Below are positions 1-8,227 of a stretch of DNA of 8,227 nt, in pieces. The notes beneath the pieces are model-generated. The model was not told where the DNA came from. It saw only the letters and a list, made by a program, of their open reading frames with translations, and searched no databases. Numbering within the stretch: the first letter of the stretch is position 1; every line of letters starts with the position of its first letter. The stretch spans positions 1 to 8,227 of the forward strand of contig DMBB01000245.1 in assembly GCA_003446295.1 (NCBI GenBank), written 5' to 3'. The stretch comes from Erysipelotrichaceae bacterium. GTDB taxonomy: Bacteria > Bacillota_I > Bacilli_A > Erysipelotrichales > Erysipelotrichaceae. Both the position numbers and the translations under genes were made by a program.

Positions 1-2
1 CT

Positions 3-404
3 GCTTACTACCGCAGCATCGGTTCTTCCATCAAACAGCGTCTGGAAGAGATCTATGCACAGTATGGCCGTTATCTGAACAAAGTCGACAGCTTCGAATT
101 CCCTGGTCTGTCCGGTATGGACAAGATGGCTGGAATCATGAGCAGTCTGAGAGAAACTCCTCCGACAGAATTCGCAGGCAAGGCAGTTGTTAAAGTAACT
201 GACTATACAAAGCCTGAAGAAACAGGTCTGCCGAAGGCAAATGTTCTGATCTATGATCTGGAAGACGGTGCTACAGTTGTTGTACGTCCTTCCGGAACAG
301 AACCGAAGATCAAGACATACTTCACAACATTAGGCAAGGATCTTGCAGAAGCAGAAGCTGAAAAGGCAGCTCTTGCTGAAGCAGTCAAGCCGATCCTTTC
401 CTGA
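3..404 (+). CDS. Phosphoglucomutase/phosphomannomutase family enzyme, C-terminal part (5' end outside window)
   Basis: This is the last 133 codons of an alpha-D-phosphohexomutase, which interconverts hexose 1-phosphates and 6-phosphates in the cytoplasm through a phosphoserine enzyme. The reading frame is open from the window edge (AYYRSIGSSIKQRLEE...) to the TGA at 402-404. The diagnostic element is the phosphate-binding loop of the C-terminal domain, VVVRPSGTEPKIKTYF, with RPSGTEPK encoded at 285-308. The segment before it (KVDSFEFPGLSGMDKMAGIM) fits the long, roughly 550-600 residue bacterial phospho-sugar mutases rather than the shorter GlmM type. The active-site serine and the metal loop lie upstream of the window, so substrate preference (glucose, mannose or a pentose) cannot be read. 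A strong terminator follows 23 bases after the stop, so this gene ends its transcription unit. The identification as a hexomutase is firm; the exact member is not. Confidence 0.93.
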   Translation, partial: AYYRSIGSSIKQRLEEIYAQYGRYLNKVDSFEFPGLSGMDKMAGIMSSLRETPPTEFAGKAVVKVTDYTKPEETGLPKANVLIYDLEDGATVVVRPSGTEPKIKTYFTTLGKDLAEAEAEKAALAEAVKPILS

Positions 405-427
405 TCACTGACAAATCACTGAAACAG

Positions 428-458
428 GCGTCCGGGACTTTGATTCCGGGCGTTTTTT
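428..458 (+). terminator. Rho-independent terminator of the phosphohexomutase gene
   Basis: A 10-bp stem (GCGTCCGGGA at 428-437 with TTCCGGGCGT at 444-453, including three G-T wobble pairs) closes a 6-base loop and runs into six T residues at 453-458. The GC-rich stem, small loop and U-tract form a classic intrinsic terminator. It separates the mutase from the operon beginning at 541. Confidence 0.92.
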
Positions 459-466
459 CTCTGTGA

Positions 467-482
467 TATGCACAGGTGCATA
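467..482. promoter_or_regulatory. Perfect palindrome, possible operator
   Basis: TATGCAC-AG-GTGCATA is a perfect 7-bp inverted repeat with a 2-bp centre. It lies just upstream of the extended -10 element at 510-518 and downstream of the mutase terminator, a position suited to a dimeric regulator acting on the operon at 541-4071. The loop of two bases is too small for a stable RNA hairpin, which favours a DNA site over an RNA structure. The regulator is unknown; none is encoded in the window. Confidence 0.4.
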
Positions 483-514
483 CCATGAAAGTTCAAATGA
501 GATGAAACATGGTA
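481..514. repeat. Inverted repeat TACCATG / CATGGTA around the promoter spacer
   Basis: TACCATG at 481-487 is the exact reverse complement of CATGGTA at 508-514, with 20 bases between. The left arm abuts the palindrome at 467-482 and the right arm enters the TGnTAAAAT -10 element. It could be a second operator half-site pair or a chance 7-mer match in a short AT-rich region. Confidence 0.3.
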
Positions 515-518
515 AAAT
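510..518 (+). promoter_or_regulatory. Probable extended -10 promoter of the MBL-membrane protein-helicase operon
   Basis: TG-G-TAAAAT matches the extended -10 pattern TGnTATAAT, with five of six bases in the hexamer. No good -35 box is present; TTCAAA at 492-497 is the nearest but gives a 15-base spacer. Extended -10 promoters can act without a -35 box. Initiation near 525 would leave a short leader that still contains the GGAG at 530-533. If transcription starts here, a start codon at 463 or 502 would be excluded. Confidence 0.5.
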
Positions 519-540
519 GGTCCTGAACTGGAGTGATAAT

Positions 541-1335
541 ATGTTTACACCGAAAGCACATAAAATAGATGACACGACATTCCGCATTACGGAATATGAC
601 AGAGGACATGCAGTCAATATGTATCTTCTGGTCGGCAAAGAACACGCATTGCTGATCGATACCGGACTGAACCTGACAAATGTTCCCAAGGCGATCCGCC
701 GTATTACCGATCTGCCTCTGTGGGTATGCAATACACACGGACACAGTGAACAGATCCTCGGAAATCACTGGTATCCTGAAGTCTTCTTCCCGGAAGAAGA
801 TGAAGACGTATTCCGGAAATACATGAATGAGAGTCCTTCCAGCAGGAATACACCTTCCGGCAGACTTGGAAGCCTTGTTTCCGCGGTATACAGTCCTCTG
901 CAGGACCTGATCCGCTATAATCGTCCATCCGAACATGAAGCGCTTCCTGAAGATGGATTCTTTGATCTTGGCGGAAGGATCGTCGGCATTCTGAAAACAC
1001 CCGGACATACACACGGCTCAGTCAGTTATCTGGATGAAGCATCCGGCAGACTGTTCTGCGGTGATCTGGTGGGTGAGAAGGAGATCCTGGTCGACTTTGC
1101 TGAGTCTTCTTCCCTGGATGTATATGAAACAACCGTTTCACTTCTGCTGGGATTGGTTGAAGACGGCAAAATCAGTCAGCTCTATCCGTCACATGGAAAC
1201 AGTCCGCTCTCAGCAGATATTCTCAGAACAGCACAGGAAGTAAGTTCCATGGTTCTCAGAGGTGACCACAAAGACGCAATGACGATCAATTATCAGGGAA
1301 TCGAATTCCGTTTCCGTCTTACGGGTAACCATTGA
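541..1335 (+). CDS. MBL-fold metallo-hydrolase with altered metal motif
   Basis: A 264-residue cytoplasmic protein of the metallo-beta-lactamase superfamily. The order of motifs is clear: an N-terminal beta segment ending in ALLIDTG (residues 36-42), the metal motif THGHSEQ (65-71), TPGHTHGS (153-160), FCGD (172-175) and YPSHGN (215-220). The predicted ligands H66, H68, H156, D175 and H218 are present. The usual HxHxDH reads HGHSEQ, so D and the third H are replaced by E70 and Q71. The second metal site may be lost or rebuilt, and substrate cannot be inferred. ATG 541 is chosen because GGAG at 530-533 lies 7 bases upstream and because homology-like sequence begins there; the frame stays open upstream to GTG 463, but that segment overlaps the palindrome and promoter. 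The stop TGA shares its last base with the next start, so the two genes are probably translationally coupled. No signal peptide is visible. Confidence 0.85.
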   Translation: MFTPKAHKIDDTTFRITEYDRGHAVNMYLLVGKEHALLIDTGLNLTNVPKAIRRITDLPLWVCNTHGHSEQILGNHWYPEVFFPEEDEDVFRKYMNESPSSRNTPSGRLGSLVSAVYSPLQDLIRYNRPSEHEALPEDGFFDLGGRIVGILKTPGHTHGSVSYLDEASGRLFCGDLVGEKEILVDFAESSSLDVYETTVSLLLGLVEDGKISQLYPSHGNSPLSADILRTAQEVSSMVLRGDHKDAMTINYQGIEFRFRLTGNH

Positions 1336-1925
1336 TGAACAGAAACAGGATCGGGATCCTGCTGAATGTGATGATCATGATCAGTTCACTTGCCGGATTA
1401 TTCATGGTACGGCATTTCGGATGGTCCATGCTGTTCTACTACACACAGGACAGCAACATTCTGGCAGTGATTGCATCTGCAATGTACCTGCTGAAGCACA
1501 GATCTGCACATCTGTTGAGATATGCTGCTTTTGTATGTCTGAATGTGACATTTCTTGTTGTGATATTTGTACTGATCCCGATCATGGGAAACGCAAGGTA
1601 CATGCTGTTCGGCGGAGGCATGCTGTTTCACCATACGCTCTCACCGATCCTCTCATGCATCAGTTTTCTGTTCTTTGAAGAGGGGAAGCATCTCTCACCC
1701 GGGGATCTGAAATACGGGATCATTCCTACGATCATATACGGAGCGATCGTGCTGATGCTGAATATTCTCAGGATCAAAAGCGGTCCTTATCCGTTCTTCT
1801 ACGTATACAGACAGCCTGTATATATGACGATCCTCTGGCTGAGCGGCATCGTTGCCGGAACGGCCCTGATAGCAGAAGCAGGCAGACGATTCAGGAATCA
1901 CATAATGGAGGCAGTTCATGGATGA
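1335..1925 (+). CDS. Six-helix integral membrane protein, Pr6Pr / AIG1-FAR-17a-like (tentative)
   Basis: A 196-residue hydrophobic protein with about six predicted membrane segments near residues 7-25, 33-53, 62-84, 96-114, 127-146 and 161-182. There is no cleavable signal peptide, and the short C-terminus is basic (RRFRNHI). Two polar intramembrane motifs stand out: YYTQDSN (35-41) and LFHHTLSP (97-104). A Thr/Ser-Asn motif in the second helix and a His in the fourth helix recall the bacterial Pr6Pr membrane proteins and the eukaryotic AIG1/FAR-17a hydrolases, where a Thr and a His are catalytic. That link is from memory of motifs, not from a search. The ATG at 1335 overlaps the stop of the upstream hydrolase (TGATG), and only a weak Shine-Dalgarno is seen, so translation probably depends on coupling. 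The 3' end overlaps the helicase gene by 8 bp. Function is unknown; a lipid- or ester-related role with the MBL protein is only a guess. Confidence 0.72.
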   Translation: MNRNRIGILLNVMIMISSLAGLFMVRHFGWSMLFYYTQDSNILAVIASAMYLLKHRSAHLLRYAAFVCLNVTFLVVIFVLIPIMGNARYMLFGGGMLFHHTLSPILSCISFLFFEEGKHLSPGDLKYGIIPTIIYGAIVLMLNILRIKSGPYPFFYVYRQPVYMTILWLSGIVAGTALIAEAGRRFRNHIMEAVHG

Positions 1926-4071
1926 TATTCTGGAAGGACTGAATCCTGAACAGCTTGATGCAGTGACATCTACGGAGGGATACATCCGTGTCATTGCATC
2001 AGCAGGCTCGGGAAAAACACGCGCCCTGACAAGAAGATTCGCATATCTGGTACTGGAACTGGGTATCCGTCCCGGCAATATTTTATGTGTCACATTTACC
2101 AATAAAGCAGCCAATGAAATGCGCAAAAGGATCCGTCAGCTGACAGGTGACAGTGATACCGGCTTTATTGTTACGTTCCATGGATTCTGTGTCAGAGTTC
2201 TCCAGGAAGAAAGCTATGCTGTTCAGTATCCAAAGTCATTCCTGGTGCTCGATAACGCTGATATCGATGCAATGCTGGAAGTGATTTATGAAGAACGGGG
2301 CCTGTCACTGCGTGATAAAACATATTCTGACGCCAGAGATATGTTTGAAATGCGCAAAGGCAAATATGAACCGCGCTATTTCCTGAATATGATCCAGATG
2401 TCTCTGGATGAACTCCATCAGAAATACATGGAAGCAGAATCGATCGACGATATCCTGTTCTACGGATATCTGTATCAGGAAAAGAAATGCTTCGGCCTCG
2501 ACTACAACGACCTGATCCGTTTTACTCTGTACATCTTTGAAATGCACGATGACATCAGGATCAAATGGCAGAAACGCCTGGAATACATCATGATCGACGA
2601 ATTCCAGGATATTGACCCGCTGCAGTATGAACTGATGGATGCGATCTGCCGTTATCATAACAATCTGTTTATCGTCGGTGATCCTGATCAGACGATCTAT
2701 ACATGGCGCGGCGCCAATGTCCGTTTCCTTGTTGAATTCGATAAGCATTATCCGGATGTCCGCACCATCATGATGAACCGCAACTACCGCTCTCAGGCAG
2801 GCATTCTGGAAAGTGCGGATACCCTGATCGCACGGAACAAACTGAGGATCGAAAAGCGCATGATTCCGGTGATCACGGAATCTGTAAAACCTGTCTATTT
2901 CCATGCGAAAACATCAAAGGAAGAAGCAGAATGGATCGAAAGCACGATCCGCTCTCTTCATGAGCAGGGCGTATCATACCGTGATACAGCGATCTTATAC
3001 CGTGCGCATTATGTATCAAGAAATCTTGAGGAAGTCTTCATCCGCAAACAGCTGCCGTACAGGATCTACAGCGGCATACAGTTCTATGAACGGATGGAGA
3101 TCCGTGACGCTATAGCATATCTGCGCATGATCGCATATAAGGACGATCTTTCATTCCTGAGGATCGTCAACAAGCCCAAACGAAATATCGGCAAGAGAAG
3201 GATCGCATATCTGAAGGAATACAGCGAGGCACATGGATGCACATTGTATGAAGCACTGCAGTTATGCGCTGAAGATGAACTCTTCCGTTCTACCCAGGCA
3301 CATTCATTTATCAATCTGATCGAATCATTCAATGCATCCTATTCAAGCCGCACGGTATCCCAGGTTCTTGCAGAGATCCTGGATGAGAGCGGATATGAAA
3401 AGATGCTCAGGACACAGGGTGCACAGGAACGCCTGGATGAACTGGCTGAACTGAAGCAGTCCGTATTTGAATTCGAAGCCTCCTGCGGAGAGGAAACAGA
3501 TCTGATCACATGGCTGAACCAGATCGCGCTGTTCACGCGGCAGGATATGCCACAAGGTTCTGATGAAGTCCGTATGATGACGATCCATACTGCAAAAGGC
3601 CTGGAATTCCCTTATGTGTTCCTGTGCGGCATGAGTGAAGGGATCTTCCCGTCCAGAAGGGCAGACAGCCAGACTGCCATGGAAGAAGAAAGAAGGCTGG
3701 CTTATGTAGCGATTACAAGAAGTGAGCGGAGACTTTATATATCTGATGGAGAAGGCAGAAACTTCGATATGACAGACAGGTATCCGTCCAGATTTGTACT
3801 GGAAATGAAAGATACGCTGGACTTCGTGAACGAACTTCCGGAAAGCCTTCTGAAAAACGCCTCTGCTTATATATCCGATCAGGAGGCAGGTCTTGCCGAA
3901 GCTGCTGACTTCCCGTTCACCATCGGAGACAGGGTAGCTCACCCTGTATTCGGAGAAGGAACGATCGAATCGATCGATCCCAAAGAAGGGGTCATCATGG
4001 TGAAATTCGATCAGCTCAATACATCCAGAGGAATTGCCTGGAAAGCTGCCAGGAAACTGAAAGTACTTTAA
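1918..4071 (+). CDS. PcrA/UvrD-type SF1A ATP-dependent 3'-5' DNA helicase
   Basis: A 717-residue superfamily 1A helicase that should unwind DNA in repair or replication restart. All core motifs are intact: Q motif around LNPEQLDAV (8-16), Walker A ASAGSGKT (27-34), Ia CVTFTNKAANEM (57-68), Ib TFHGFC (86-91), Walker B MIDEFQD (225-231), motif III VGDPDQTIYTWRGA (253-266), motif IV NRNYRS (287-292), motif V MTIHTAKGLEFPYVF (554-568) and motif VI RRLAYVAITRSERRL (592-606). The C-terminus (about 666-717, FTIGDRVAHPVFGEGTIESI...) is a Tudor-like domain, which in PcrA binds RNA polymerase. Length matches the PcrA/UvrD family. Wording such as YIRVIASAGSGKT and DYNDLI suggests the second clostridial PcrA-like paralogue rather than the main PcrA, but one window cannot tell. 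GGAGG at 1907-1911 lies 6 bases before ATG 1918 and fixes the start. The gene overlaps the membrane protein gene by 8 bp. No terminator is evident after it. Confidence 0.93.
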   Translation: MDDILEGLNPEQLDAVTSTEGYIRVIASAGSGKTRALTRRFAYLVLELGIRPGNILCVTFTNKAANEMRKRIRQLTGDSDTGFIVTFHGFCVRVLQEESYAVQYPKSFLVLDNADIDAMLEVIYEERGLSLRDKTYSDARDMFEMRKGKYEPRYFLNMIQMSLDELHQKYMEAESIDDILFYGYLYQEKKCFGLDYNDLIRFTLYIFEMHDDIRIKWQKRLEYIMIDEFQDIDPLQYELMDAICRYHNNLFIVGDPDQTIYTWRGANVRFLVEFDKHYPDVRTIMMNRNYRSQAGILESADTLIARNKLRIEKRMIPVITESVKPVYFHAKTSKEEAEWIESTIRSLHEQGVSYRDTAILYRAHYVSRNLEEVFIRKQLPYRIYSGIQFYERMEIRDAIAYLRMIAYKDDLSFLRIVNKPKRNIGKRRIAYLKEYSEAHGCTLYEALQLCAEDELFRSTQAHSFINLIESFNASYSSRTVSQVLAEILDESGYEKMLRTQGAQERLDELAELKQSVFEFEASCGEETDLITWLNQIALFTRQDMPQGSDEVRMMTIHTAKGLEFPYVFLCGMSEGIFPSRRADSQTAMEEERRLAYVAITRSERRLYISDGEGRNFDMTDRYPSRFVLEMKDTLDFVNELPESLLKNASAYISDQEAGLAEAADFPFTIGDRVAHPVFGEGTIESIDPKEGVIMVKFDQLNTSRGIAWKAARKLKVL

Positions 4072-4211
4072 ACAGCAATTTCAATTTATCAAAGAGCATC
4101 ATTTTGACTGACATTATCCATTGCGGCATATGCTGATCATTTCATAACTATTCAAGCTTGTTTTGAAATTTCATTTATTACCGGATATTCAACATAGATT
4201 AAACAGAATAT
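4072..4211 (+). other. AT-rich intergenic spacer between the two helicase genes
   Basis: No gene, tRNA or convincing hairpin terminator was found here. It is visibly more AT-rich than the gene on its left and resembles the gene on its right. It holds a weak promoter candidate (4104-4132) and a perfect 10-bp palindrome TGAAATTTCA at 4164-4173. It is the likely left edge of the accessory insert carrying the primase-helicase gene. No direct repeats or insertion-sequence ends were recognised by eye. Confidence 0.6.
4104..4132 (+). promoter_or_regulatory. Weak candidate promoter for the AEP-helicase-PLD gene
   Basis: TTGACT (4104-4109, five of six to TTGACA) is followed after 17 bases by CATATG (4127-4132, three of six to TATAAT); TATGCT at 4129-4134 is a better hexamer but at 19-base spacing. 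It would give an unusually long leader of about 70 bases. Read-through from the upstream operon is an alternative source of transcripts, since no terminator intervenes. Confidence 0.25.
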
Positions 4212-6995
4212 ATGGAGAAGACAAAAGAAGAATTACTGGCTGTCATTGAACAAAAAGATCGGCGGATCAATGAATTGGAAAGACTGCTGAAACAGTACGG
4301 TATTTTTATTACGGATCCGAACAATAAGTTATCTGCAGAAGAAAAGATCAGAGTGTTCCAGGATTACTTTCGCTGCAGAACTGATATTTATGCTGAGCGG
4401 TATTTCAGCAAAAAGAATAATAGATATGGCTGGGCACCTGCCTGCAGCAACAGTTTTAAGGAAAACTGTCCTAAAAAACATGGCAGATTTAATTGTTTTC
4501 AATGCACAAACAGATCTTTTCGGCCATTGACCGCGGATGTTCTGCGAGCTCATTTTCAAGGCAAAAACCAAGGAATCGGATTGTATCCTATGTTCGATGA
4601 CAATACATCATGTTTCCTTGCGATTGATTTTGATGATGATAACTGGATGGAAAACTTACTCAGTGTGTACAAAGAAGCAATAAAGTACAAAGTTTATCCT
4701 GTGATGGAAAGATCTCAATCCGGATATGGCGGTCATTTATGGTTTTTCTTTGCTGAGCCTATCAAGGCTGTTTCAGTCAGAAAATTCGGTGAGTTTTTCA
4801 TTCGCGAAGCAATGAAAAATAATAGAGGATTATCATTTTCTTCTTTTGACAGAATGTTCCCGAACCAGGATTATATTCCGGATGAAGGTAAAGGAAATCT
4901 GATTGCTGCCCCATTACGCTATGATGCTTTCCGTAAGGGGAATTCAGCATTTATCAATATTCAGCAGCAGGTAATACCAAATCAGATCGAATACTTGACG
5001 TCCAGACCGAAAATAACGCTGGAGGAGATCAATTCAATACTTGCGCTCAGAAGTACTGAAGACTATTTCTTTGATAATGATCAATTGTCTTTATCACTGA
5101 CAACAGATGTTAAATACGTCAGAAAAATATACGGTAGTGTATCAACATCATTGCAGCTTGAAAAAGAAGGAATGAATGCCGTTACCAGAAATATTCTTCT
5201 TCGATGTGCATCTATGTATAATCCGAAATATTTCGAACTGCAGCGGCTTCATAAACCGATTTATATCAATTCTGAGTTCAGCAGGGTTCTTTCATATTAC
5301 GAGGAAGATGATAAATATCTATACCTGCCGCGAGGACTATTTCCAGTTATTCAGCATGCAATGCCGGAAACACATTTTCAGATAGAGGATCATACTTGTT
5401 CAGGCAGTCCAATCGATGTCAGATTTCTCGGAATGCTGAGAGATGATCAGCTGGAAGCAGCTGAAGTGATGCTTAAATATGACATGGGTATTTTACAGGC
5501 TGTACCTGGCTATGGAAAAACCGTTATCGGGCTTTATTTAATTGCAAAGCTGAAAGTGAACACATTGATCCTTGTGGATAGTAAAGAGATCCAGGATCAA
5601 TGGGAAGAACGTATAGAACAGTTTTTAGAGTATCCGAAAGCACTAAGAAAAAAAGACAGATTCGTATGCAAATATAATGGGACTTCAAAACGGCTGAATG
5701 GTCATATTGATATCGCAATGGTCAGATCACTGAAAAATCATGAGGATCTTTCTTCTTTGTTAAAGGATTACGGATTAACTATCATAGACGAATGCCATCA
5801 TGTTGCATGCGATAGTTTTCTTCATGTAATGAGACATGTACGCAGTAAATATATATTTGGCTTGTCTGCAACACCAAAACGTGATGACGGTTTATTTAAA
5901 GTGATTACAATGTACTGCGGACAGATCAGAAAACAAGTCTCTGAAAAGTCAGTAAAAAGGACGTATTCATTCCGGCAGTATCTGATTCCGCGATATACGA
6001 ACTGTCGTGTCCTGAAAGATCGGTATTCGTATACATATATGTGCACAGAACTGATGAATGATCATGTACGAAACTATATGATCGTTAAGGATGTGCTTCG
6101 TGAATATCAAGAACGCAGTAATATCATTTTATTGACAGAAAGAATAGATCATCTGAAAATACTTTTTAAAATGCTGGAAACAGCATGTGACAATGTTTAT
6201 ATGCTGAATGGAGCGGCAGGCAGAAATGAACGTAAAGCAACTCTGGATGAAATAAGAAACATTAAGCATCAGTATATTCTTCTTGCGACCAGCAAACTTC
6301 TGGGTGAAGGATTTGATCTGCCATCGCTGAATTGCCTGTTCCTTGTGCTTCCGATCTCGTCTAAAACGAGAATCACTCAATATACCGGAAGAATTCACAG
6401 AACATCAGAACAGAAAGATCTGGTCAAAGTATATGATTACGTGGATACACAGATTCCAATGGCACAATCAATGTACTATAAACGTCTGAAACAATATCAG
6501 GCGGAAGGATATTATGTCTATACCGAACATGAAGAGATAAATGTTGATCAGATTTTGTATAGCAAAGAAAACTTCGAAGAAGTGCTGATTCAGGATATCA
6601 AAAATGCAGAGTCAGAAATAACTGTTTTTGCGGTCAAATCAATTCTATCAAGGGTAAAGAAATTCCATGGATTACTAATGAAAGCAGTGCAGAAAGGTGT
6701 GACTGTAAATTTTGTACAAAATTCTGAAAAACAGATCGATGAACAGGTGAGAGCGTATTTGGAAGGCTTAGGCGCAAATATTATTTTTGCTCAGCACGGC
6801 AAGCATTTCATTGTAATTGACAGGTCAATTGTCTGGAATTGCAGTTTTGATCTTTTCAGTAATATACCGTCTGATGGTTTTGCAACAAGAGATAAAAACA
6901 GTCAAACGGCTTCAGAGGTCATTTCTTCAATAGCTATAAATAAAGCCAAAGATGAAAAACCGGATTTGTTCAGTCTGTCAAGTAAAAATACTTGA
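4212..6995 (+). CDS. TOTE-type conflict protein: archaeo-eukaryotic primase, SF2 helicase and PLD-like domain
   Basis: A 927-residue multidomain protein. Residues 1-30 are a charged coiled coil. Residues about 40-270 match the AEP (primase-polymerase) domain of TOTE systems: Cys cluster C78, C86, C95, C98, catalytic DxD in FLAIDFDDD (D139, D141), the His motif SGYGGHLWFFF (H175), FDRMFPNQD (212-220) and NLIAAPL...GNSAF (229-247). Residues about 405-745 are an SF2 helicase: LRDDQ (409-413), Walker A VPGYGKT (431-437), DECHH (526-530), SATPKRDDG (552-560), LLGEGFD (696-702) and QYTGRIHR (723-730). Residues about 785-905 are PLD-like, with QHGKHFIVID (861-870) and IVWNCSFDLFS (873-883); the HKD is off register by one residue. 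Such proteins are predicted anti-element systems acting on nucleic acid; I know of no firm biochemical role for this subtype. ATG 4212 has no clear Shine-Dalgarno, but no better start exists before the coiled coil. A hand count gives 34% GC at 5041-5220 against 47% at 3061-3240 in the neighbouring helicase, suggesting acquisition by transfer. Confidence 0.88.
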   Translation: MEKTKEELLAVIEQKDRRINELERLLKQYGIFITDPNNKLSAEEKIRVFQDYFRCRTDIYAERYFSKKNNRYGWAPACSNSFKENCPKKHGRFNCFQCTNRSFRPLTADVLRAHFQGKNQGIGLYPMFDDNTSCFLAIDFDDDNWMENLLSVYKEAIKYKVYPVMERSQSGYGGHLWFFFAEPIKAVSVRKFGEFFIREAMKNNRGLSFSSFDRMFPNQDYIPDEGKGNLIAAPLRYDAFRKGNSAFINIQQQVIPNQIEYLTSRPKITLEEINSILALRSTEDYFFDNDQLSLSLTTDVKYVRKIYGSVSTSLQLEKEGMNAVTRNILLRCASMYNPKYFELQRLHKPIYINSEFSRVLSYYEEDDKYLYLPRGLFPVIQHAMPETHFQIEDHTCSGSPIDVRFLGMLRDDQLEAAEVMLKYDMGILQAVPGYGKTVIGLYLIAKLKVNTLILVDSKEIQDQWEERIEQFLEYPKALRKKDRFVCKYNGTSKRLNGHIDIAMVRSLKNHEDLSSLLKDYGLTIIDECHHVACDSFLHVMRHVRSKYIFGLSATPKRDDGLFKVITMYCGQIRKQVSEKSVKRTYSFRQYLIPRYTNCRVLKDRYSYTYMCTELMNDHVRNYMIVKDVLREYQERSNIILLTERIDHLKILFKMLETACDNVYMLNGAAGRNERKATLDEIRNIKHQYILLATSKLLGEGFDLPSLNCLFLVLPISSKTRITQYTGRIHRTSEQKDLVKVYDYVDTQIPMAQSMYYKRLKQYQAEGYYVYTEHEEINVDQILYSKENFEEVLIQDIKNAESEITVFAVKSILSRVKKFHGLLMKAVQKGVTVNFVQNSEKQIDEQVRAYLEGLGANIIFAQHGKHFIVIDRSIVWNCSFDLFSNIPSDGFATRDKNSQTASEVISSIAINKAKDEKPDLFSLSSKNT

Positions 6996-7019
6996 CAGAT
7001 CATTTACACGACATATAAT
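6992..7019 (+). promoter_or_regulatory. Perfect consensus sigma-A promoter of the rpsP operon
   Basis: TTGACA at 6992-6997 and TATAAT at 7014-7019 are both exact consensus, separated by 16 bases. Transcription should begin near 7026, giving a leader of about 26 bases with only the ribosome binding site in it. The -35 box contains the TGA stop (6993-6995) of the upstream gene. This suggests strong, constitutive or growth-rate-controlled expression of the ribosomal operon, independent of the accessory gene. Confidence 0.93.
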
Positions 7020-7051
7020 AGGTGATGTTCGTAATAAGGAGGAACAAAACT

Positions 7052-7339
7052 ATGGCAGTAAGAATCAGACTGACTCGTATGGGCTCAAAAAAGGCTCCGA
7101 GATATCGTATCGTTGTAGCAGATTCCAGAACACGCCGCGATGGCCGTGCAATCGAAACTCTGGGTTATATCAATCCTACAACTGAACCGGCTACAGTCAA
7201 TGTAGATGAAGAACTCGCACTGAAGTGGCTGAGAACAGGTGCACAGCCTTCTGACACAGTTCGCAACATTTTCTCTTCCCAGGGCATCATGAAGAAATTC
7301 GACGAAGAGAAAAAAGCGGCTAAAAAAGAGAAGAAGTAA
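7052..7339 (+). CDS. rpsP: 30S ribosomal protein S16
   Basis: A 95-residue small-subunit protein needed for early 30S assembly, where it binds 16S rRNA. The N-terminus [20 protein letters not shown] and the following DSRTRRDGR and IETLGYINP motifs are diagnostic of bS16. The tail ([15 protein letters not shown]) is lysine-rich, as is common in Bacillota. The start is ATG 7052: a full AAGGAGG at 7036-7042 stands 9 bases upstream, whereas the frame opens earlier at GTG 7022, which would lie at or before the transcription start. It is the first gene of the operon with khpA, rimM and trmD. In many Bacillota ffh precedes it; here the AEP-helicase gene does. Confidence 0.98.
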
Positions 7340-7345
7340 TTTCCT

Positions 7346-7594
7346 ATGGCAGAACTGGATCAGGTACTGAAAGATCTGGTTGCGCCGATGGTAAATGATC
7401 GCGAAAGTCTGGATATCAGGGTCACATCAGGTCCGAAAGACAGAGATGTTGTTCTGCATGTCTATGCAAAGAGCGATGACATTGCCCGGCTCATCGGAAG
7501 AAAAGGTATGATGGCGTCAGCACTGCGTCAGGTTATGTCTATCGCATCCCATTCAGAGGATAAGCGAGTCAGCATCAAGTTTGAAGAAATCTGA
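7346..7594 (+). CDS. khpA: KH-domain RNA-binding protein KhpA (YlqC family)
   Basis: An 82-residue single-KH protein. The KH signature is ARLIGRKGM (47-55) with the GxxG loop G51-R52-K53-G54, followed by the helix ASALRQVMSIAS and a terminal strand VSIKFEEI. In Gram-positive bacteria KhpA pairs with KhpB (EloR/Jag) and binds many RNAs, affecting cell elongation and division. Its place between rpsP and rimM is the standard Bacillota order. It begins 6 bases after the rpsP stop with only a purine-rich AAGAAG inside the rpsP end as ribosome binding site, so it is probably coupled to rpsP translation. Length is normal for the family (about 75-82). Confidence 0.95.
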   Translation: MAELDQVLKDLVAPMVNDRESLDIRVTSGPKDRDVVLHVYAKSDDIARLIGRKGMMASALRQVMSIASHSEDKRVSIKFEEI

Positions 7595-7621
7595 AAAAGG
7601 ATGTACAACGCATCCTTTTTT
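7594..7621 (+). terminator. Terminator-like hairpin inside the operon, between khpA and rimM
   Basis: AAAAAGGATGT (7594-7604) pairs with GCATCCTTTTT (7610-7620), counting one T-G wobble, around a 5-base loop, and six Ts (7616-7621) follow. It has intrinsic-terminator form, but the GC core is short (GGATG/CATCC), so it may only reduce transcription into rimM-trmD. The A-tract on the 5' side means it could also work on the opposite strand. The stem begins at the last base of the khpA stop codon. Confidence 0.6.
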
Positions 7622-7632
7622 GTGAGGTAGTC

Positions 7633-8142
7633 ATGGAATATATAGAGATCGGCAGAATCATCAACACCCATGGATTGAAAGGTGAAATGAAAATCGAAAG
7701 CTGGTCGGATTTTGACGAGATCCGATATCAGAAGGGAAAGACGGTATACATCCTGCAGAATGATGAATACCTTCCTTTCAAGGTGCGTTCATTCCGTGTG
7801 CACAAAGGCTTTCCGCTCGTAATGCTCGAAGGGATCCCGGATATCAATTCTGCTGAGCAGTATAAGAACTGTGTCATCTGCATGAACGCAGATGACCGTC
7901 ACAAGCTTCCTGCAGGAGAATTCTACGCTGATGAACTGATCGGGATGAAAGCAGAAGATGAAGAAGGCAGAAACATCGGTGAAGTCATCGCTGTAGAAGA
8001 AACCCGCGGAGCGCAGAAAAATCTGCGTATCCGCATGGCTGAGGGGAAGGAATTCCTGCTGCCGGACATTCCGTATTTTGTACTTCATGTCGATACGGAA
8101 AACAGGATCATCAGGATCCATATGGACGAGGGACTGTTATGA
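7633..8142 (+). CDS. rimM: Ribosome maturation factor RimM
   Basis: A 169-residue factor that binds S19 and helps mature the 30S head domain. The N-terminal RimM domain is recognised by IGRIINTHGLKGEMKI (6-21) and the FKVRSFRVHKGFPLVMLEGI stretch (49-68). The C-terminal PRC-barrel follows from about residue 95: GEFYADELIGM, IGEVIAV, FLLPDIPYFVLHVD and the closing EGLL. A small oddity is LLPDIPYF, where many homologues have LLPF.P; it is probably ordinary divergence. GAGGT at 7624-7628 precedes ATG 7633. The gene ends in an ATGA overlap with trmD, so the two products are likely made in step. The upstream hairpin at 7594-7621 may lower its transcript level relative to rpsP. Confidence 0.97.
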   Translation: MEYIEIGRIINTHGLKGEMKIESWSDFDEIRYQKGKTVYILQNDEYLPFKVRSFRVHKGFPLVMLEGIPDINSAEQYKNCVICMNADDRHKLPAGEFYADELIGMKAEDEEGRNIGEVIAVEETRGAQKNLRIRMAEGKEFLLPDIPYFVLHVDTENRIIRIHMDEGLL

Positions 8143-8227
8143 AGATCACTGTACTGACAATATTTCCCGACATGTTCCATGATTTCCTGAACACATCGAT
8201 CATCAGCAGATCGATCCAGAAGGGGCT
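8139..8227 (+). CDS. trmD: tRNA (guanine-N1)-methyltransferase TrmD, N-terminal fragment (cut by window end)
   Basis: Only the first 29 codons are present: MKITVLTIFPDMFHDFLNTS followed by IISRSIQKG. This is the signature N-terminus of TrmD, a SPOUT-class, S-adenosylmethionine-dependent enzyme that makes m1G37 in tRNAs and prevents +1 frameshifting. The catalytic knot lies beyond the window. GAGGG at 8128-8132 stands 6 bases before ATG 8139, and the start overlaps the rimM stop (ATGA). In the usual order rplS would follow. Confidence 0.96.
   Translation, partial: MKITVLTIFPDMFHDFLNTSIISRSIQKG

Follow-up and report, generated by a model that had tools for sequence, protein, structure and literature searches.

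In this study, we performed a computational analysis of one gene in an 8,227-nucleotide stretch of contig DMBB01000245.1 from an Erysipelotrichaceae bacterium (the whole stretch is hereafter called the window). The gene, one intact open reading frame (ORF) at positions 4212-6995 of the forward strand, encodes a protein of 927 amino acids in which an archaeo-eukaryotic primase (AEP/PrimPol), an XPB-like SF2 helicase and a PLD-fold tail follow one another. The gene is accessory and is under purifying selection. We give roughly even odds (a probability of about 0.5) to its being a stand-alone genome-conflict factor that belongs to the accessory genome and was acquired horizontally, because a precisely bounded, GC-atypical DNA-processing gene that is optional yet strongly selected is the pattern expected of single-gene defense or conflict factors. 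The protein is best read as a stand-alone PrimPol-helicase acting against mobile DNA, a non-CRISPR relative of the CAPP-helicase proteins.

Domain architecture and residue conservation

The first-pass annotation, made from the letters of the window, had proposed a single gene coding one 927-residue chain with primase, SF2 helicase and PLD-like parts; profile and fold matches bore out both the chain and the single-gene layout. The AEP-TOTE profile that it had suggested for comparison gave a strong match as well (PF22548, 241.7 bits, E = 9.8e-72, Pfam profile search of the eight window proteins). The protein carries the DxD, His and third acidic residue of the AEP/PrimPol superfamily on an AEP fold, and the Walker A, DExH and motif VI of an XPB-like SF2 helicase on an XPB-like fold. 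Its fold matches comprised CAPP PrimPol crystal structures for the AEP part, together with XPB and UvsW.

Conservation was read from an alignment of 186 rows, comprising the 94 rows of alignment A4 (the window protein and 93 sequences chosen from the best 120 of 2608 matches), 91 genome loci and the sister genome G213; some of these rows are near-copies, G213 for example being 100% identical to P0002. Six primase-domain residues (D139, D141, H175, D213, Q219 and C98) and seven helicase residues (K436, T437, D526, E527, Q723, R727 and R730) were kept in 186/186 rows, D220, C78 and C86 in 185/186, and C95 in 171/186. In loci L001-L080, the conservation of H175 and of the motif II DEC is in part built in, because these loci were found via two peptide patterns containing H175 or that DEC; the other residues and the PLD region played no part in the pattern search. 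Between the window and G213, the ratio of nonsynonymous to synonymous divergence (dN/dS) was 0.052 for the AEP part and 0.070 and 0.053 for the two helicase halves, and in the tail it reached 0.147. The low ratios of the AEP and helicase parts point to a function retained on the chromosome. Since the catalytic residues are near-invariant and dN/dS is low, while the PLD motif is variable, copying and unwinding appear to be what stays constant in the protein.

The PLD-fold tail

Fold comparison placed the tail in the PLD fold. The hallmark of an active HKD nuclease, HxK(x)4D followed by GSxN, was not found in the window protein, and its tail scored 15.6 bits against PLDc_2, whose cut-off is 27. 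Across the alignment, the canonical HxK(x)4D occurred in 57/186 rows and a one-residue-longer HxK(x)5D in 28/186, the window among them; the remaining 101 had neither form, including four that lack the PLD region. On a FastTree tree of 185 rows, the canonical motif requires at least 10 state changes, eight of them forced by well-supported (starred) branches. Both this tree and a second FastTree tree of 185 rows carried long-branch warnings, and the second lacks G200 and G202, missed by the ORF filter. The tail appears to have been retained, but the standard nuclease chemistry does not. It probably serves for DNA contact, dimerization or regulation; if it is a nuclease at all, it would be a modified one and not a standard HKD nuclease. 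TrmB-type PLD folds, for comparison, are not known to be catalytic. A simple "dead PLD" reading was softened, as the shifted HxK(x)5D of the window clade could be a re-registered active site. The PLD nuclease implied by the earlier annotation is doubtful given the non-canonical motif and the PLDc_2 score below cut-off, and on present sequence evidence the PLD part should not carry a nuclease label.

Distribution and history of the site

The accessory status of the gene follows from a site that is filled in one sister genome and empty in another, and from patchy presence in two overlapping genome sets (sharing, e.g., G001, G107 and G146). Matches over at least 80% of the query were found in 18/195 genomes of the G001 family set, which was drawn evenly from a larger group, and in 7/70 genomes of the G001 genus set; in each set one match has a TAG (in frame in the family set). 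Versions of the gene differ widely within the genus: identity to the window protein is just 33-34% for four of the seven genus-set copies. A universal housekeeping gene is ruled out by the empty site and the patchy presence, and an accessory, conflict-like distribution is supported. Neither outcome that would have refuted the first-pass annotation, a missing AEP-TOTE match or universal presence at the locus, thus came about. Pieces of the gene persist in some other genomes; G244, for example (locus L288, 9059-9205, reverse strand), carries a remnant matching the first 49 residues of the AEP gene at 55% identity; its 16-kb locus contains no other match to the AEP protein at E<=0.01.

The sister genome G213 shares the gene order across the whole window (86.3% over 8264 columns). 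By blastn, the other sister, G230, aligns to window positions 1-4069 (88.6%) and 6975-8227 (92.4%) with 91 bp between, so that 2905 bp of the window are missing at its site; the G230 genome gave a weak helicase-type match only (E = 2.6e-13, 25% identity). The right junction coincides with a perfect inverted repeat beside the rpsP promoter. The GC content of the gene is 0.376, as against 0.45-0.474 in the six neighboring genes measured.

One old arrival followed by loss in G230 is the simplest history of the site, not the only one. By dN, G213 and G230 are the closest pair in the metallo-beta-lactamase (MBL) fold gene, the membrane protein gene and the UvrD gene (UvrD 0.010 vs 0.023), but the dN of rimM disagrees with this pairing (0.076 vs 0.073 for window-G230), as does the dS of UvrD (0.502 vs 0.486 for window-G213). 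Independent insertions in the window and G213 are less likely, since both junctions are common to the two. The dS of the AEP gene between the window and G213 is 1.03, compared with 0.115-0.659 for six flanking genes, and allele exchange or faster change of the gene after its arrival is therefore possible. Both sister genomes also carry, about 6-7 kb past rimM, a tandem array with a period of about 150 bp and copies 82-89% alike (L270 15034-15465, L271 4477-4908).

Relatives on mobile elements and alternative roles

Relatives are carried by mobile DNA of several kinds. Plasmid records with a match at E<=1e-60 numbered 78, of which 22 matched over at least 80% of the query, and 33 were conjugative and 17 mobilizable. 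A shorter relative in E. coli (788 aa) has no tail, its match stopping at residue 775 of the window protein; it was found over at least 80% of its own length in 681/5426 complete genomes. Of 25 E. coli matches listed, 24 bear the RefSeq name "TOTE conflict system archaeo-eukaryotic primase domain-containing protein". Two chromosomal E. coli copies that were examined have an integrase gene and YfjI nearby; a plasmid copy lies beside AlpA and YfjI. At loci L295-L297, the PLD-less E. coli relatives come after an inovirus-type Gp2 gene, with YfjI slightly further upstream. Among viral contigs, 10 of the 80 loci kept matched across both primase and helicase, and one of these ten (L081) agrees in match and length with a bacterial contig (L064). 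In phage records, none of the 2009 matches covers 80% of the query, and the 20 matches listed are helicase-only. The record titles of the 80 loci kept from the peptide-pattern search include Bacillota, Bacteroidota and Proteobacteria/Deltaproteobacteria. On a Lacticaseibacillus paracasei conjugative plasmid (L293, 6818-9577), the homologous stretch is split into two annotated genes and adjoins an IS5-like transposase and a methyltransferase-helicase pair.

The gene could be a replication primase-helicase that once served to prime and unwind the DNA of its own mobile element and was then stranded in the chromosome, where it was retained or domesticated. The plasmid relatives, the E. coli island copies with integrase and YfjI or with AlpA and YfjI, and the viral contigs that match both primase and helicase all speak for this, and passages of PMC8211822 describe non-CRISPR CAPP relatives, most often with a helicase domain, as typically residing in mobile elements. 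However, integrase, relaxase and capsid domains are absent from the eight window proteins scanned, and purifying selection still acts strongly on the active sites in the two species that carry the gene at this chromosomal position. We consider this origin unlikely, yet of real weight.

A further alternative with real weight, which we hold to be rather unlikely, is an optional host enzyme of DNA repair or fork restart, not defense, in which PrimPol repriming would be combined with an XPB/UvsW-like remodeling motor. The XPB and UvsW fold matches agree with such a role, and the gene comes after a UvrD-type helicase gene in the window and G213, but it is patchy, absent or decayed in relatives and atypical in GC; moreover, of the 23/70 genus-set genomes with a close UvrD paralogue, only G213 and G107 have a full-length AEP match. 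Archaeal XPB of XPB-Bax1, XPB of TFIIH and T4 UvsW are among the closest known systems; the motor of the window protein differs from them by its fusion to PrimPol, and no Bax1-type nuclease or TFIIH partner gene is present in the window. SauUSI (7clg), an ATP-dependent restriction endonuclease, and DruE are likewise among the closest known systems. SauUSI is not known to contain a primase. Unlike the window protein, DruE of Druantia III has no primase mentioned in passages of PMC13192584, and, set beside SauUSI and DruE, the sole PLD domain in the window is non-canonical.

Relation to TOTE and CRISPR-associated systems

TOTE denotes TPR, OB, TBP and Effector (Aravind, Iyer and Burroughs 2022, as quoted in PMC12458937). 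The window protein has the AEP-TOTE-type domain of the effector, and the PF22548 and RefSeq names suggest a multi-gene TOTE system, but no TPR, OB or TBP domain, and so no TPR-OB partner of the TPR-cold-shock type, was found at E<=0.001 in the eight proteins of the 8.2-kb window. The TBP family PF00352 was found in 0/10 related genomes including G213, where a divergent TBP could escape the model; the same model was positive in four archaea among 14 control genomes. TOTE membership of the window locus was accordingly rejected, and the TOTE architecture claimed at first reading was not supported by these searches. A true TOTE effector whose TPR, OB and TBP partners are encoded at other loci of the genome would agree with the PF22548 domain, but given the same absences it is very improbable. 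At the window locus, the label "TOTE system" should give way to "stand-alone AEP-XPB-PLD-fold protein".

In layout the protein resembles CAPP_A, the CAPP-Helicase type (Nat Commun 2021), in which, according to passages of PMC8211822, a PrimPol is followed by a helicase, as in the window protein; those passages mention no PLD-fold tail, and CAPP-Helicase is CRISPR-associated, whereas the window has no cas genes. A CRISPR-adaptation polymerase working with Cas1-Cas2 can hardly be credited, as no cas gene was found in the window and Cas1 was found in 0/3 related genomes (G213, G230 and G001).

Neighboring genes and points against a conflict role

Genes around the relatives were screened in two unmatched sets. 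The near set comprised 148 proteins, taken in locus order up to a cap, from 38 of the 53 loci that have three or more genes on each side; the far set comprised 148 proteins from a longer stretch of the same locus list. The families considered were the first 25 of 165 (near) and 143 (far) for Pfam, and of 259 and 196 for PADLOC, so that a lone TPR or OB partner could escape. Near the gene, PADLOC named PDC-S01 (6), mad2 (3), AbiEi (2) and type II methyltransferase (2), and Pfam named Fic (3) and SLFN_AlbA_2 (2); in the far set, PADLOC named mad3 (4), Cas1/Cas2 models (2-3), SoFic (2), PDC-S24 (2) and PDC-S04 (2), and Pfam named Fic (2). A cluster of DUF4143-type ATPases, named from Pfam family counts and not by a scan of each of its 23 genes, occupied the first upstream slot in 10/84 cases against 13/719 other slots (Fisher p = 3.4e-5, post hoc), counted over 94 loci of which some, such as L252, contain several copies. 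PDC-S01 matches as many near members as DUF4143 does, and according to passages of PMC13356809 no individual locus is more frequent than PDC-S01 in rumen genomes; because it is so common there, the upstream enrichment is weak evidence.

Several of these results weigh against a genome-conflict factor. First, the neighbor screen does not separate near from far genes, since defense-type genes occur in both sets, and the genes flanking the AEP gene in the window are not defense genes. Second, the 927-aa protein matched no NCBIfam model at cut-off, and none of the PADLOC models treats it as a separate system. Third, element replication would account for the presence of relatives on plasmids and islands as well as defense does.

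Features of the locus

The gene order in the window is a phosphomannomutase-type end, an MBL fold gene, a membrane protein gene, a UvrD paralogue, the AEP-helicase gene, rpsP, khpA and rimM (Table 1). Scans of the window for tRNAs and for Rfam matches at gathering score were both negative. The ORF ends inside the inverted repeat at 6975-6998, which contains its final six codons and its stop, and the stop TGA (6993-6995) sits within the -35 box of the rpsP promoter. The repeat overlapping this promoter was found at all three sister loci, gene-filled or empty, and is a possible operator or leader element. The UvrD of the window is a second paralogue, present at 57% identity or more in 23/70 genus-set genomes, most of which also carry a PcrA-like gene at about 37-41% identity. 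The small membrane protein gene (1332-1925) matched the MAGa3780 family NF046009 at 23.9 bits, below the cut-off of 80. In the relatives at L228, L229 and L231, an Ffh-like gene (assigned by eye) lies at most about 1.5 kb upstream of rpsP; the phosphomannomutase-MBL-membrane-UvrD block occupies its place in the window.

Table 1. Coordinates of the features in the window.
Feature	Positions	Strand	Remarks
UvrD/PcrA-like paralogue, left flank	1918..4071	+	
Segment in window and G213, absent from G230	4070..6974	+	91 bp instead in G230; blastn vs L270/L271
AT-rich leader, UvrD stop to ORF	4072..4211	+	GC 0.293; no blastn match (E<=1e-3) to G230/G213
Long N-terminal helix, residues 5-28	4224..4295	+	AlphaFold2 secondary structure
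AEP-TOTE/PrimPol domain, residues 44-275	4341..5036	+	
Cys cluster C78, C86, C95, C98	4443..4505	+	Predicted Zn site
AEP DxD, D139-D141	4626..4634	+	186/186 rows
AEP His H175	4734..4736	+	186/186 rows
AEP third acidic region, D213 and D220	4848..4871	+	186/186 and 185/186 rows
XPB-like module, residues 303-773	5118..6530	+	Includes XPB N-terminal region ahead of helicase core
Walker A, G435-K436-T437	5514..5522	+	K436, T437 in 186/186 rows
Motif II DECH, residues 526-529	5787..5798	+	D526, E527 in 186/186 rows
Motif VI QYTGRIHR, residues 723-730	6378..6401	+	Q723, R727, R730 in 186/186 rows
C-terminal PLD-fold domain, residues 771-905	6522..6926	+	
Possibly re-registered HKD region	6795..6851	+	HGKHFIVID (862-870) and WNCSFD (875-880) replacing HxK(x)4D...GSxN
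Perfect inverted repeat	6975..6998	.	CTGTCAAGTA-AAAA-TACTTGACAG; also at empty site
Consensus promoter TTGACA-16-TATAAT before rpsP	6992..7019	+	12/12 matches; same hexamers in G230, G213
rpsP, right flank	7022..7339	+	Likely start ATG 7052 by eye; then khpA, rimM

Possible mechanism and implications

If the protein is a genome-conflict factor, we infer that its gene arrived horizontally and that invading DNA is its target. The protein probably dimerizes; its XPB-like motor would load on branched or single-stranded intermediates of replicating phage or plasmid DNA and remodel or unwind them, and the PrimPol would prime and extend DNA there, derailing replication of the invader. Replicating invader DNA is proposed as the point of attack because the preserved activities (priming, extension and translocation) suit such a role; in addition, passages of PMC8211822 describe CAPP as an active DNA primase-polymerase with strand displacement. 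A more specific and quite speculative version is one-gene immunity with the primase as effector, in which the XPB-type motor would find invader intermediates, the PrimPol would overwrite or displace them by copying, and the tail would serve as a non-cutting DNA sensor. Such an arrangement would explain both why primase and helicase residues are near-invariant while the canonical PLD motif persists in so few rows, and why that motif has changed state so often on the tree.

The family is already named, and passages of PMC8211822 have already reported non-CRISPR primase-helicase relatives. The literature searched (titles, starts of abstracts and passages, including PMC10952713 and PMC12839542, with few subscription papers) yielded no paper that puts a primase-helicase-PLD member to an experimental test. 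The window offers a clean handle on the gene, since the same flanks enclose it in one sister genome and lack it in another. The wider AEP-helicase family is common and bears the name of a conflict system; if its role is immunity, this points to a polymerase as the effector, and the family-wide pattern suggests that copying and unwinding, not PLD cutting, form the conserved core.
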